Assembly: GCA_028287445.1 (NCBI GenBank)
Contig: JAQBPQ010000082.1
Span: forward strand, 1-35,235
Direction: 5' to 3'
DNA from: Cohnella sp.
GTDB lineage: Bacteria; Bacillota; Bacilli; Paenibacillales; Paenibacillaceae
Length of the DNA stretch: 35,235 bases
The position numbers were made by a program, and so were the translations under genes. Shown one piece after another: positions 5,090 through 34,644 of the stretch. Every line of letters begins with the position of its first letter. Positions within the stretch are counted from its first letter, which is position 1. A model generated the notes under the pieces. That model ran no database searches. It saw only the letters and a list, made by a program, of their open reading frames with translations, and was not told the origin of the DNA.

Positions 5090-5270
5090 AAAAAACCCGC
5101 GAATGCCGTCCGACGCGCAAGTTTCTGAACCCGCTCTCGCAGGTGGGTGTCCGCAGCCGAGGTTTTTGACTTCCCTTTTCGGGGGCATGTCAGCCGCCTG
5201 GCGATATAGAACTCCCGTGAAACAGCCATTGGTTCAAAACAATAATTCGTCGTAACGAACATCGCAGGGT
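5090..5270 (-). ncRNA. ssrS: 6S RNA (SsrS), RNA polymerase regulator
   Basis: About 181 bases lie between a strong promoter and a T tract. The 5' end (CCCTGCGATG) and the 3' end (CATTCGCGGG) form the closing stem with small bulges. A second pairing, CGACG with CGTCG, continues it. The 3' strand carries GCGGACACCCACCT followed by GGGTTCAGAAAC, which fits the conserved 3' side of bacterial 6S RNAs, and the middle region is mostly unpaired and opposes a GC-rich arm. The RNA ends in CGCGGG and TTTTTT. 6S RNA mimics an open promoter and binds the sigma-A holoenzyme in stationary phase. The identification rests on structure, length and recalled consensus. Confidence 0.78.
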
Positions 5271-5276
5271 AGTTCT

Positions 5277-19278: not shown

Positions 19279-19812
19279 TTACCGCTCAAGATGGGCTGCC
19301 AACCTGGTAAAAGTACCCAAAACCCGCTCCACACGGGAGCGCACCGAAGCGTGCAGCGGCTCGCCTCCGGCATCGAACTGCCGTTGATCGCCGCCGATGG
19401 AAATCCACTCCGGGCAGCTGATGCCATGTACGTTGCGCACGATCACCTGCATGTGCTGGAGCGAGCTGACACCAACCGCTCCGCCGGCCGAACTGATGCT
19501 GAGCACCATTTTACCGTCAAAATGTTCCGTGCCCAAATAATCCAGCGCATTTTTAAGCACACCCGATACGCTGCCATGATATTCCGGCGTGGCCAGCACC
19601 ACCGCATCCGCTACTGCGACAAGCTTCGCGAACGCGCGAGCTCCTTCATGTTCCGTCGTGCCGTCCGGATCGTATAGTGGAAGAGGGTGCACCCGCAGAT
19701 CGAACAGCCGGGCCGAATGCCCCAGCGCAGAAAGTCTTTTCTCGACATATCTGGCCATTTGAGTGCTGGTGGAATGAAGTCGATTGCTTCCCGCAATGAT
19801 GGCGATGTTCAT
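19279..19812 (-). CDS. NADPH-dependent FMN reductase (azobenzene reductase-like)
   Basis: 177 residues, start ATG with GGGAGG eight bases upstream. Flavodoxin-like fold: the phosphate loop AIIAGSNRLHSTSTQMARYV (about 4-23), the FMN-binding segment ATPEYHGSVSGVLKNALDYL (about 73-92) and ISSAGGAVGVSSLQ. These are the hallmarks of the NADPH-dependent FMN reductase family, which reduces quinones, azo dyes, chromate or free flavin. It is monocistronic. An operator-like dyad covers its -10 (19828-19863), so it is probably controlled by a repressor responding to redox or electrophile stress. Confidence 0.9.
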   Translation of the reverse strand: MNIAIIAGSNRLHSTSTQMARYVEKRLSALGHSARLFDLRVHPLPLYDPDGTTEHEGARAFAKLVAVADAVVLATPEYHGSVSGVLKNALDYLGTEHFDGKMVLSISSAGGAVGVSSLQHMQVIVRNVHGISCPEWISIGGDQRQFDAGGEPLHASVRSRVERVLGTFTRLAAHLER

Positions 19813-19827
19813 GGGAAAACCTCCCTT

Positions 19828-19863
19828 GGTGACTTTACATACATTTTAGTATATAAAGTTACC
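19828..19863. promoter_or_regulatory. 36-bp interrupted palindrome covering the -10 of the FMN reductase gene
   Basis: Arms GGT-n-ACTTTA-nn-TAC and GTA-nn-TAAAGT-n-ACC are symmetric about TAAAAT, which is itself the predicted -10. The spacing suggests a dimeric winged-helix repressor (HxlR/MarR type); which one is unknown. Confidence 0.7.
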
Positions 19864-19872
19864 AAACGTCAA
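19843..19872 (-). promoter_or_regulatory. Promoter of the FMN reductase gene
   Basis: On the minus strand TTGACG (19867-19872), 18 bases and TAAAAT (19843-19848). Most of the spacer and the -10 lie inside the dyad at 19828-19863. Confidence 0.55.
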
Positions 19873-19884
19873 CGCATATCACCC

Positions 19885-19983
19885 AGTATAAACGGCTGTC
19901 GCCGTCCTCTTCGCGGCAGTAAACGTTTATGTCGGAGATCATTCAGAGATGAGTGGTGCACACTTATAAATCCTGAATGATCA
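19885..19983 (+). repeat. Dispersed two-stem element, copy 1
   Basis: The element starts GTATAAACGGC. Its first stem pairs ATAAACG with CGTTTAT (with inner CTGTCG/CGGCAG). A linker GTCGGAGA leads to a second stem, GATCATTCAG (19937-19946) with CTGAATGATC (19973-19982), a perfect 10-base pairing. The loop holds GGTGCACACTTATA. The orientation given is that of the GTCGGAGA linker; the true sense strand is unknown. Confidence 0.85.
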
Positions 19984-20080
19984 AGTATAAACGGCTGTCG
20001 CCGTCCTTGGATGGCACATACGTTTATGTCGGAGACGTTTCAGAAAAGTATAGGTGAAAACTTGTACTTTCTGAAACGTG
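19984..20080 (+). repeat. Dispersed two-stem element, copy 2
   Basis: It follows copy 1 head to tail. The first stem and the linker CGTTTATGTCGGAGA are conserved. The second stem has changed on both sides, to ACGTTTCAGAAA-A-GTA (20035-20050) pairing with TACTTTCTGAAACGT (20065-20079). The loop GGTGAAAACTTGTA resembles copy 1. It ends 15 bases from the DUF3906 stop codon. Confidence 0.85.
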
Positions 20081-20094
20081 AATAAAAAAGCGAA

Positions 20095-20295
20095 TTACGT
20101 CTCGATCACGTAACCCGCCCCTTTGTTAGCTCTGCGCTTTTCAACCAGCACGATTTCCTTGATTTCCGGAGTCCCAATGTAGTGCCTGGAAAGATGAACT
20201 TCTACGGAGTCCATCACCTCCTGATCGGAATCTCCCATCAGGATGAGGACCGCATTGCGATCCGAAAGCTGCACCTCAAGCTTGTATAAAAACAC
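20095..20295 (-). CDS. DUF3906 family small protein
   Basis: 66 residues from GTG at 20295, which has GGAG eight bases upstream and gives MFLYKLEVQLSDR. An ATG at 20322 overlaps the pfkA stop (ATGA) but lacks a ribosome binding site. It is a small acidic/basic protein with the pattern VLILMGDSDQEVMDSVEVHL and a C-terminal EKRRANKGAGYVIE, similar to DUF3906 proteins of Bacillales as I recall them. No function is known. It lies directly after pfkA and is surely co-transcribed with it. Confidence 0.75.
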   Translation of the reverse strand: MFLYKLEVQLSDRNAVLILMGDSDQEVMDSVEVHLSRHYIGTPEIKEIVLVEKRRANKGAGYVIET

Positions 20296-27752: not shown

Positions 27753-27853
27753 ATTACCATTTTACCGCTTTTCCCTCTCTCGAAAACAGGGAGAAACTGT
27801 AAAATGCTGTCCGAGTTTGTTTGATTTTATCTAAAAGCCATCCGGAGGCAACA

Positions 27854-27952
27854 AGCATAAACGGCTATCGCCGTCCTCTTCACGGCGATAAACGGTTATG
27901 TCGGAGATCATTCAGAGAGGAGTGGTGCAAACTTATAAATCCTGAATGATCA
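27854..27952 (+). repeat. Dispersed two-stem element, copy 3
   Basis: Nearly the same as copy 1 at 19.9 kb: AGCATAAACGG, inner stem TATCGCCG / CGGCGATA (now a perfect eight pairs), linker GTTATGTCGGAGA, and second stem GATCATTCAG / CTGAATGATC. The loop is GGTGCAAACTTATA. It lies between the start of the GH26-like gene and the corC terminator. Confidence 0.88.
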
Positions 27953-27992
27953 AAAAAGCCCACGCTCCGCTGCCGCGTCACATGGGCTTGGT
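27951..27992 (-). terminator. Terminator of the CorC-type gene
   Basis: On the minus strand AAGCCCATG pairs with CGTGGGCTT across a loop of about 16 bases and is followed by TTTTTTG. The T tract abuts the end of the dispersed repeat. Confidence 0.8.
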
Positions 27993-32367: not shown

Positions 32368-33141
32368 TTATCCAGACTTCGTTCGTCTCTTTTTGTAGTC
32401 AGCCGCCAAACTTTTGATCTTATTGTAGAACGTTTTATCCTCCAACCGGTCAAACAATTTATAGGAGGGATACGCGAGGTTCACCTCGATAATCCATATC
32501 TTCCCTTTCCGATCGATACCCAAATCAATTCCCGTTTCATGGGAGCGATACCCTTTTTTCCCGGCATATCGAATCAGTTTAAATCCGTCGCTGATCAACT
32601 TATGTTTTACGCTCGCGATTCGTTCGCGGCCATAGCCTAATGATTTGGCTAAAGCATCGTCGATTGTGGTGGCGTACCCTCCACCGCGCCGAACATTGGT
32701 CACTACGCTGCCTTCTCCTGCGACTTTCGCCAGCATTCCCGCATAATGCCATTTTTCTTTCCCGTCCCGCATCAGCATAAGACGAATGGAGAAGGGTCTT
32801 CCTTCAATCATGGGCACATCAATGGTCCTTTGGACAAGAACCGAGCTACTACGGCGTCCGCCTCTGAGTTGTTCATATAAATCATCGATCGATTTGACAT
32901 CTACCGGTTTGCCCTTGACTTTAATGTAACGATAACCTTCTTCTGTTTTCCATGCCTTTATGATTCCTGAGCCTTTATGCTCGTTCTTTCCTTTGATATA
33001 CACCGACTTATATTTATCCAAGTATTTGGAAAGGGAGCTTGGAGTCAGTATCGATGTCGGAGGCAAAAGTTTGCGGAGATCGGAATGTTTGGAATACAAC
33101 CGATGGATCTCCCACTTTGAAGGATCCCATTTTAAGCCCAT
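32368..33141 (-). CDS. YheC/YheD family ATP-grasp protein, third in tandem
   Basis: 257 residues, start ATG with AAGGA eight bases upstream. An N-terminal helical part (STILTPSSLSKYLDKYKSVYI) leads into an ATP-grasp core: YIKGKNEHKGSGIIKAW (nucleotide lysine and glycine loop), SVLVQRTIDVPMIEGRPFSI, a glycine-rich VTNVRRGGGYAT, and the metal site IDLGIDRKGKIWIIEVN. YheC/YheD proteins of Bacillus are associated with the spore coat. Their ligase reaction is unknown. It resembles its two neighbours in layout but is clearly diverged. Terminator follows. Confidence 0.85.
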   Translation of the reverse strand: MGLKWDPSKWEIHRLYSKHSDLRKLLPPTSILTPSSLSKYLDKYKSVYIKGKNEHKGSGIIKAWKTEEGYRYIKVKGKPVDVKSIDDLYEQLRGGRRSSSVLVQRTIDVPMIEGRPFSIRLMLMRDGKEKWHYAGMLAKVAGEGSVVTNVRRGGGYATTIDDALAKSLGYGRERIASVKHKLISDGFKLIRYAGKKGYRSHETGIDLGIDRKGKIWIIEVNLAYPSYKLFDRLEDKTFYNKIKSLAADYKKRRTKSG

Positions 33142-33176
33142 GCCATCATTCCTTTTTCTTTTTTGTTTAATACCGC

Positions 33177-33926
33177 TTATCTTGCTGACTTCCTCAGCCT
33201 TTGAATTTTTCGATAGAGGGTTAGATCCGGCAGCTTCATGAAATTCCCTCTGGTCAACGGTTCGTTATTGACTTCGTAAATCCAGATTCTCTTCCGGCGG
33301 TCAATTCCGATGTCGACGGCGAACTCATACAGATTGGGATACATTCGGCTCACCTGGCGCACGGTTTTCACAATACATAATTCCAATTTCCGATTCATTT
33401 GCTTTTTTTCCTTACCGGTATATTTCAAATGTCGTGTAAAAAGCGTATTGAGCAATGTCGGGGTACCTCCCAAATGCGAGGTTGTCACAATACTTCCCTT
33501 CTCGCCCAATCTACCGCAAATCCCACCGACCTTCCACTTCCCGTTCACTCTCAGGGCATGGCAACGAAGGTCGAAGTGTCTGCCGTCCTTCGTCACACTG
33601 TCTACCGCCCGCTGGACGACATATCTGTTGTCCTCCGTCATCTCTTTCACTTTCGTCCAGAGATCCTTAGAATCGACGTAGGCCAGGCTGGTCCCTTGCC
33701 TGAATTTAAAAAGGTTATCCTTCCATTTCTCAATCCGAATGACGCCCCGAGATTTTCTCCCCCGGTCCGGTTTGAGATAAACTTTGTCATACTTGTTGAT
33801 CATTCTGTGGAACGCGCTTTCCCGCAGCAGATCCGTATCGGGAATATGACCGGACACCTCAGGCGTATGCATGAGCTGGTAGGCCACCGCGAGTTTGCTT
33901 TTCACATGATGTGCCCCAATGGTCAT
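33177..33926 (-). CDS. YheC/YheD family ATP-grasp protein, second in tandem
   Basis: 249 residues, starting four bases after the previous stop, with GGGTGA as a weak ribosome site overlapping that stop; translation is probably coupled. Layout: HHVKSKLAVAYQLMHTPEV, PDTDLLRESAFHRMINKYDK, YLKPDRGRKSRGVIRIEKW (ATP-binding), YVVQRAVDSVTKDGRHFDLR, SIVTTSHLGGTPT and the metal site VDIGIDRRKRIWIYEVN. The segment after the metal site (NEPLTRGNF) differs from its neighbours, which may mean a different acceptor. Cytoplasmic, no signal peptide. Confidence 0.85.
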   Translation of the reverse strand: MTIGAHHVKSKLAVAYQLMHTPEVSGHIPDTDLLRESAFHRMINKYDKVYLKPDRGRKSRGVIRIEKWKDNLFKFRQGTSLAYVDSKDLWTKVKEMTEDNRYVVQRAVDSVTKDGRHFDLRCHALRVNGKWKVGGICGRLGEKGSIVTTSHLGGTPTLLNTLFTRHLKYTGKEKKQMNRKLELCIVKTVRQVSRMYPNLYEFAVDIGIDRRKRIWIYEVNNEPLTRGNFMKLPDLTLYRKIQRLRKSAR

Positions 33927-33930
33927 GAAA

Positions 33931-34644
33931 TCACCCGTCGCGCATTATTTTTTTTGCATTGACATATTTTCGATACAGCCTCCGGTCGAACTTCTCCAAG
34001 CCGATGCAATCCGGTTTGGTATTGGCTTCGATAAACCACACTTTCCCTTTCTTATCGATTCCCATATCTAATCCGAGAATTTCAAGCGGAAAATGGGAAC
34101 TTAGAATTTGTGCGATTTGATGGGAGGAATCCATTAAATCCCGCATGATTGCAGAACTGTCCAAGGATTGATCGATCCCCTTGAGCAATTTGTAAAGATT
34201 GTAATCCTTTGCGCCCTTCGCTACATTCGTGACGATCGATGACCTGTGAGGCGCAACTTTGCCGGACATTAACGTCGCACGCCACCTGCCCAGAGGTTTT
34301 TGCAAAACAACCCGCACATCGAATGGGCGATGCTGATAAGTTGCCAAATCCACCCCTTGTTGAATGATGTATTTCTTATTGGGATTCAGTATCTTTTGGA
34401 TTCGAGAATACACTTTATCCGGTGAGCTCAGGCTCGTGGTTTGTTGATACGAAATCTCACATTTTTTATCGTTAAGCTTCTTGACCCGGATGATTCCAGT
34501 CCCTTTCCTTCCGATATCCGGTTTAATATAAACGCACGCATAGGTTTGCAGCATTTTTTGGAGGGTGGAAACTTCAAACCAATCCGTATCCGGAACATAA
34601 TGTCTCATGATGGGATCTTTCATGATCGGAAGCCCCTTTTTCAT
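33931..34644 (-). CDS. YheC/YheD family ATP-grasp protein, first in tandem (start codon uncertain)
   Basis: 237 residues when started at the first ATG, 34644. That ATG has no ribosome site. Instead a perfect AAGGAGGTGATC lies about 30 bases upstream, seven bases before an in-frame ATC at 34671. Residues encoded between them (IEHTVIRSK) align with the start of the next gene (IGAHHVKSK), so the true protein is probably nine residues longer. Core: IKPDIGRKGTGIIRVKKL, YIIQQGVDLATYQHRPFDVR, SIVTNVAKGAKDY and the metal site LDMGIDKKGKVWFIEANTKP. It follows the aminotransferase gene by about 40 bases. Confidence 0.83.
   Translation of the reverse strand: MKKGLPIMKDPIMRHYVPDTDWFEVSTLQKMLQTYACVYIKPDIGRKGTGIIRVKKLNDKKCEISYQQTTSLSSPDKVYSRIQKILNPNKKYIIQQGVDLATYQHRPFDVRVVLQKPLGRWRATLMSGKVAPHRSSIVTNVAKGAKDYNLYKLLKGIDQSLDSSAIMRDLMDSSHQIAQILSSHFPLEILGLDMGIDKKGKVWFIEANTKPDCIGLEKFDRRLYRKYVNAKKIMRDG

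Follow-up and report, generated by a model that had tools for sequence, protein, structure and literature searches.

A dispersed two-hairpin element of Cohnella and other genera of the Paenibacillus order is a probable mobile DNA unit

Several described families offer points of comparison for short, dispersed hairpin repeats. The PATEs of Haloquadratum are characterised in PMC3119063 as non-coding elements of many copies that have no terminal inverted repeats (TIRs), carry palindromes near both ends and show no target duplication. IS200/IS605 transposons such as IS608 and ISDra2 have no TIRs and no target duplication, insert 3' of a short motif and are biased towards the lagging-strand template (PMC6006769 and PMC7290912), and REP tags and REPtrons are also described in PMC6006769. 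In PMC3733652, bcr1 of the Bacillus cereus group is placed among TIR-bearing MITEs. Like bcr1, which belongs to a related class of hosts, the element reported here is repeated at scattered intergenic sites and shows traits of a mobile element; bcr1 has TIRs whereas this element has none, which sets the two apart as far as that description goes. Like the PATEs, this element lacks TIRs and target duplication, has palindromes near both ends, is too short for a transposase and is present in many copies. No account of it was found among the listed titles and abstract openings on Paenibacillus or Cohnella repeats and related elements in the searchable open-licence literature, which is not proof of absence, and the word Paenibacillus has 0 occurrences in PMC3733652, PMC2267715, PMC6006769, PMC12306157 and PMC2817692.

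We analysed a window of 35,235 nucleotides from Cohnella sp. (contig JAQBPQ010000082.1), by which we mean the whole stretch of DNA, and found three copies of the element (Table 1). The family unit is ~98 nt long and reads, on the + strand, CAAG, hairpin 1, the linker GTCGGAGA and hairpin 2. The initial annotation had reported two adjacent copies sharing a first stem and a linker; both are in that place, head to tail with 0 bases between them, and the loop it had noted, GGTGnAnACTTrTA, is present in each. Copy 1 starts with CCAG, a degenerate form of the usual CAAG, and its hairpin 2 (TCATTCAG...CTGAATGA) belongs to subfamily A; hairpin 2 of copy 2 (CGTTTCAG...CTGAAACG) belongs to subfamily B. 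Base 19982, with which copy 2 opens, is also paired with 19937 in the predicted fold of copy 1, and the CAAG of copy 2 (19982-19985) we infer to be the target that copy 1 used. As + strand RNA, the copies fold with z-scores of -5.15 (copy 1) and -6.98 (copy 2), and 0 of 200 dinucleotide shuffles folded as well. Beyond copy 2, 4 nt from its 3' end, a terminator-like hairpin overlaps the end of a small gene (stop at 20095-20097); it was omitted by a simple terminator scan because its T-run is paired. On the other side, the gene preceding copy 1 (19279-19812) is presumably reductase-like.

Table 1. Positions of the element copies and of neighbouring signals in the window (R1, covariance model built from 18 copies).
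Feature	Position	Strand	Evidence and remarks
Element copy 1, subfamily A	19883..19981	+	R1 102.3 bits, fold, alignment
Hairpin 1 of copy 1	19887..19931	+	predicted fold
Hairpin 2 of copy 1	19938..19981	+	predicted fold
Element copy 2, subfamily B	19982..20079	+	R1 116.4 bits, fold
Hairpin 1 of copy 2	19986..20028	+	predicted fold
Hairpin 2 of copy 2	20035..20079	+	predicted fold
Element copy 3, subfamily A	27852..27950	+	R1 104.6 bits; linker with one mismatch
Terminator-like hairpin and T-tract	20084..20124	-	-19.5 kcal/mol, z -5.2
Terminator-like hairpin and T-tract	27951..27989	-	-24.2 kcal/mol, z -4.8; abuts 3' end of copy 3
Promoter-like site of the 19279-19812 gene	19843..19872	-	consensus match only; just outside 5' end of copy 1

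The family is large. The exact linker CGTTTATGTCGGAGA occurs 22 times in the assembly that contains the window (G000; 3.3 Mb in 278 contigs, 78% complete), with 0 occurrences of a reversed-pattern control, and this, with the third copy in the window, bears out the expectation of further copies in the genome. Hairpin 2 comes in two subfamilies that have hairpin 1 in common, a TCATTCAG type (6 of 18 aligned copies) and a CGTTTCAG type (12 of 18). R1 has 71 matches at E <=0.1 in G000, many of the weak ones being opposite-strand shadows of the palindromes. At E <=0.001, with 100 candidates scored per genome, it matched 21 of 40 genomes (own included); matches per genome range from 0 to 95 in the genus (95 in G022, 62 in G024, 61 in G019, 39 in G006, 34 in G021 and 17 in G023). 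A second model, R2, built from 96 copies, matched at E <=1e-4 in 153 of 392 genomes of the Paenibacillus order (own included) and in 20 of 49 genera; its copy numbers are lower bounds because 10 candidates were scored per genome. Copies in G000 are much alike (median best identity 0.94, n=36), those in G024 less so (0.87, n=23). The element was absent at E 1e-3 from a plasmid collection (two queries) and a phage collection (one query). A pattern scan of genome contigs returned at least 112 stretches, mostly from unrelated organisms; 18 of these loci were scored with R1 and, among the matches listed, only three Cohnella loci fell at E <0.01, with one more at 0.59. For flanks and gene context, 36 of 79 matches were used in G000 (dropping opposite-strand shadows, partial or contig-cut copies and weak matches), 96 of 96 outside it, and 23 of 30 in a third set (3 shadows and 4 repeat loci dropped); overlap removal hides the leading member of some tandem pairs, among them window copy 1, and these counts are without it.

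The element is a mobile DNA unit. Its insertion can be read at an orthologous locus of a second genus, which we take from the translated gene ends to be the yvcK-whiA junction. There, 100 genomes were matched and 30 loci fetched, of which 29 were readable: the element is present at 4 (filled) and absent from 25 (empty), two of which carry an unrelated insert. Flank identity to the filled reference is 84-92% and 98-99% for the three nearest empty loci. Where the empty state reads ..TATAACTTATATATATGAATG.., the filled one has ..TATAACTTA, then the unit, then TATATATGAATG.., the unit being the reverse complement of the element and ending in CTTG. The joint is clean at base level, a resolution reached at this one locus: the whole unit was inserted 3' of CTTA on the complementary strand, without target duplication. 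Among 154 copies (155 less one with a short flank), no target-duplication signal emerged over 384 word and offset settings tested by permutation (best z ~2.2), and TIRs are absent, a mean of 3.35 of 15 end positions matching vs 4.12 after shuffling. CAAG is near-invariant at the 5' end, the sequence before it being unconserved, and NAA follows the 3' end, which on the complementary strand is TTN before the unit. The third base of NAA is A in 34/36, 89/96 and 22/23 copies and the second in 25/36, 66/96 and 14/23; both NAA and CAAG fall in columns at the ends of the models, a placement that may favour them. Tandem junctions are exact in 8/8 distinct cases, the foot of hairpin 2 running straight into CAAG under a search pattern that permitted 1-4 bases after its anchor, and look as if the CTTG end of the resident copy had been the target; the spacing of other neighbouring pairs is ~70 to 700 nt. 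The element is missing from G022, G014 and G048 at the site that corresponds to window copies 1 and 2, where the flanks have diverged too far for the joint to be read. The REP/MITE-like hairpin mobilisation offered as one possibility at the outset is thus well supported, by the dispersed copies, filled and empty sites, absence of duplication, end hairpins and the replication-strand polarity described below.

Partial and variant forms were seen as well. Solo remains in G000 consist mainly of hairpin 2, or mainly of hairpin 1 and the linker (L230, L236, L238, L239; L228, L231, L232). Hairpins with another hairpin-1 foot, AAAAACGG...CCGTTTTT, lie within or beside a truncated canonical copy in L021 (1460-1640) and L006 (1426-1553) and stand alone in L237 (715-797). 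Two pairs of G000 loci, L063/L067 (contigs C150, C192) and L078/L034 (C5, C86), hold related copies with the same 5' flank and different 3' flanks; all are near contig ends, so the pattern could equally well stem from mixed strains in the assembly or from a flank that moved along with the copy. In G003, the site that corresponds to copies 1 and 2 holds a different short tandem repeat array with TGTGTAAGAAAGTTRCATAACTC in its units (L312, about 560-860), and the spot may therefore be a repeat hot spot.

Most copies adjoin the T-tract of a terminator-like hairpin, and both window sites have one on the - strand. In the 17 nt after hairpin 2, an A-run of >=4 is found in 29/35 copies of G000 and 72/96 of the others, with T-runs in 0 (n=35) and 1 (n=96), respectively; before the 5' end, T-runs number 2/35 and 10/96 and A-runs 4 and 4. 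On the other strand, 99/154 of the 3' flanks fold at <=-12 kcal/mol, vs 23 when shuffled and 13 of the 5' flanks, and the mean 3' flank fold is -15.5 kcal/mol vs -8.0 with letters shuffled. Relative to the element, the 5'-side and 3'-side genes of the 96 copies outside G000 are antisense/antisense in 50 cases, antisense/sense in 13, sense/antisense in 13 and sense/sense in 8 (12 unresolved); the corresponding counts for the 36 G000 copies are 13, 2, 4 and 2 (15 unresolved). These direction calls are rough, neighbouring genes being taken as the longest open reading frames. The resolved yvcK-whiA site, CTTA/TATATAT, is without a long T-tract and no terminator was seen there by eye; a terminator is therefore preferred and not required.

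The orientation of the element follows replication in some genomes. With the origin placed from dnaA (PF00308 matches) and the terminus assumed opposite, the element points against the fork at 42/43 loci in G024 and 31/35 in G006, both Cohnella genomes, and at 10/11 in G323; in G404, of another genus, the polarity is weak (33/49) and the rule is not universal. Loci here are best-scoring hits with tandems merged (44 of 63 in G024, 35 of 43 in G006, 60 of 142 in G404 and 11 of 36 in G323). An element set against the fork has its complement, with TTN before it and CTTG at its end, as the lagging-strand template. In G024 and G006 together, 32/44 examined loci lie between two antisense genes; polarity is kept at 10/11 loci where the neighbours are not both antisense, and of the genes lying further off in these regions only 21/34 have leading orientation. 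Gene direction and terminator preference thus account for part of the polarity, the sample that separates them being small (11 loci).

Altogether, we find it reasonably probable that the element is a non-autonomous ~98 nt mobile DNA unit that moves as single-stranded DNA and lands in T-rich stretches of the lagging-strand template, served in trans by an unrecognised enzyme. By analogy, single-strand transposition in trans is suggested by the lack of duplication and TIRs, the end hairpins, a target resembling the element's own end and a lagging-strand bias of the kind reported for IS200/IS605. The moving strand would be the reverse complement of +, that is, hairpin 2, the linker TCTCCGAC, hairpin 1 and then CTTG. 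An enzyme of HUH type, or functionally similar, would cut in trans at TTG/TTN beside the hairpin feet and join the single strand into T-rich tracts left exposed in the lagging-strand template, terminator hairpins acting as preferred landing places. The CTTG end of a resident copy could itself serve as target, which would yield arrays, and covariation of the hairpins would follow from an enzyme that reads their shape and foot as the sequence drifts from one subfamily to another. Only tentatively do we advance the fuller and rather doubtful proposition of an order-wide, transposase-less single-stranded DNA element whose enzyme is other than a PF01797 Y1 protein and whose targets are terminator hairpins and its own CTTG.

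As to its relations, we infer a PATE-like mobile element of single-strand type, with terminator preference and fork polarity, that resembles an IS200/IS605 derivative in its working; membership of that group is not claimed. With IS200/IS605, as partially described in the sources, it shares hairpins near both ends and an end motif related to the target (CTTA target, CTTG end). It differs in that the unit is without a transposase gene and that several copy-rich genomes are without a Y1 gene. Unlike in the available description of IS608, there is no room for a 5' guide tetranucleotide, one hairpin starting at the very end of the unit on the putatively active strand. Against the PATE description at hand, it stands out by hairpins at the very ends, a structure kept across 20 genera, its terminator preference and its replication-following orientation. 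In IS91/Helitron rolling-circle transposons, a tetranucleotide of the CTTG/CAAG type stands next to a hairpin at one end and the target is not duplicated, a likeness that we treat as a lead only.

A REP/REPIN-type element moved by a host RAYT (TnpA-REP, PF01797) would share much of this outline: short palindromic intergenic repeats, a tetranucleotide 5' of a hairpin, arrays and locations after genes (PMC6006769, PMC3116915 and PMC3733652, in the portions used). Dispersed intergenic copies and a GGAG or GTAG-like motif 5' of the hairpin foot, which resembles REP tags, speak for it, as does the presence of PF01797 in 12/37 genus genomes, including G022 (95 element matches), G021 (34; PF01797 fragmentary) and G023 (17; PF01797 match weak). 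We nevertheless regard it as unlikely. PF01797 is absent from G000 (78% complete) and from the copy-rich G024 (1 contig; 62 matches), G006 (39) and G019 (61). At 18 PF01797 loci of 12 genomes, with a fetched flank of <=1.5 kb, no element is nearby (best R2 E 0.2), and half-elements there match no better than at 9 control loci; two PF01797 proteins that we read resemble, by eye, ordinary IS200/IS605 TnpA. The transposase of TnpA-REP type named in the initial annotation as a possible partner is accordingly not supported, since G024, G006 and G019 have no PF01797 gene and none of the 18 loci from genomes that have one (G022 among them) lies beside the element, and the REP transposase was set aside as mobiliser. 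Differences in build point the same way, within the sections of the REP literature used: two different hairpins in fixed direct order, a near-invariant CAAG end, no flanked RAYT (18 loci, 12 genomes) and a tag that is not conserved as GT[AG]G and varies among GGAGA, GTAGA, CGAGA, GGTGA and others. In PATEs, the palindromes are akin to those of IS605-type elements resident in the host (PMC3119063). At the 18 PF01797 loci of the genus, a search for a likeness of this kind gave no R2 match below E 0.1 and no parent for this element among them.

A coding version of the element between nearby copies was also looked for: the two wide gaps examined, in L154 and L248, hold repetitive open reading frames, with no transposase by eye. 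The tandem repeats that lie there between element copies (L154 2675-3181, L248 1046-1457) have CFSSLI in common when translated and look like a further repeat family dispersed in Cohnella.

The hairpins are under clear covariation. In an alignment of 95 distinct copies of many species (A4), 93.5% of cells pair and 25/27 pairs show changes on both sides; two-sided cells number 411, vs 125±8 after shuffling (500 rounds) and 25 to 69 after the partners were shifted by 1-3 columns, and at the foot of hairpin 2 two pairs use all four Watson-Crick types. A4 was fitted to the covariance model and so leans towards its structure; relatedness among copies inflates the shuffle control. The evidence for paired change comes from this alignment of many copies, and the lack of covariation that the initial annotation named as refuting its reading was not seen; the second-stem difference between copies 1 and 2 on which that annotation relied is not an independent compensatory event because it separates the two subfamilies.

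Such covariation, with very stable folds, could reflect a functional structured RNA, either an sRNA or a cis-regulatory element, maintained by selection and spread by ordinary duplication. The + strand is asymmetric in its favour, G-U exceeding A-C by 197 vs 49 (A4, 96 copies), 95 vs 12 (A3, 36) and 57 vs 11 (A5, 27); in A4, the excess lies mainly in upper hairpin 1 and the hairpin-2 loop, the long outer helices being about equal. It could mean a role of the + strand as RNA or single-stranded DNA, or hairpin irregularities read by an enzyme on the - strand. In the window copies and L362, the + strand folds more stably than the -, while the putative moving strand is the -. Covariation alone is no proof of an RNA role because template-switch repair of palindromes could also give paired changes, and the new structured RNA first suggested is not needed to explain it, the G-U asymmetry on + still speaking for one. 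Presence or absence at orthologous sites of close species, dozens of copies scattered over a single genome, the lack of any conserved sequence before CAAG, a + strand antisense to both neighbours at 50/96 and 32/44 loci, solo halves and exact tandem arrays all speak against this reading, which we judge improbable. At the element, no Rfam family exceeds its gathering score (6S RNA is the sole one to do so in the window), and at permissive thresholds 19870-20100 gives five low-scoring matches only, all far below gathering scores.

Insertion through RNA or cDNA would have the 3' end of a + strand molecule anneal to a T-tract of the lagging-strand template, the molecule then being incorporated in the manner of an Okazaki fragment or through target-primed reverse transcription. 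Group IIC introns use terminators, and the A-run at the 3' junction, the terminator-like targets, the fold of the + strand and a polarity that makes + the nascent lagging strand would all fit; both ends of the element are sharp, though, and the resolved CTTA/TATATAT site has neither a long T-tract nor a visible terminator, which makes this route very unlikely. A host motif selected relative to the fork, as KOPS and Chi are, or one limiting conflicts between transcription and replication, would match the polarity in G024 and G006 (42/43 and 31/35) but not gain or loss between sister species, 0 to 95 matches within one genus or the weak polarity of G404, and is the least credible of all.

If movement as single-stranded DNA is correct, the element preserves, across the order, a natural record of how single strands insert at replication forks, in which terminators are preferred insertion sites and orientation reads fork direction in some genomes. 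An abundant element with no visible mobiliser points to an unrecognised enzyme, and tests should be easy with a unit this small whose ends are known. The element also accounts for many intergenic hairpins with covariation in these genomes, which annotation might otherwise label regulatory RNAs. Elsewhere in the window, a 6S RNA (RF00013) lies at 5090-5273 on the - strand (98 bits), and three consecutive related open reading frames with GIDRKGK/RxW-type motifs occupy 32368-34644, also on the - strand; we take these to be, possibly, ATP-grasp spore-coat proteins.
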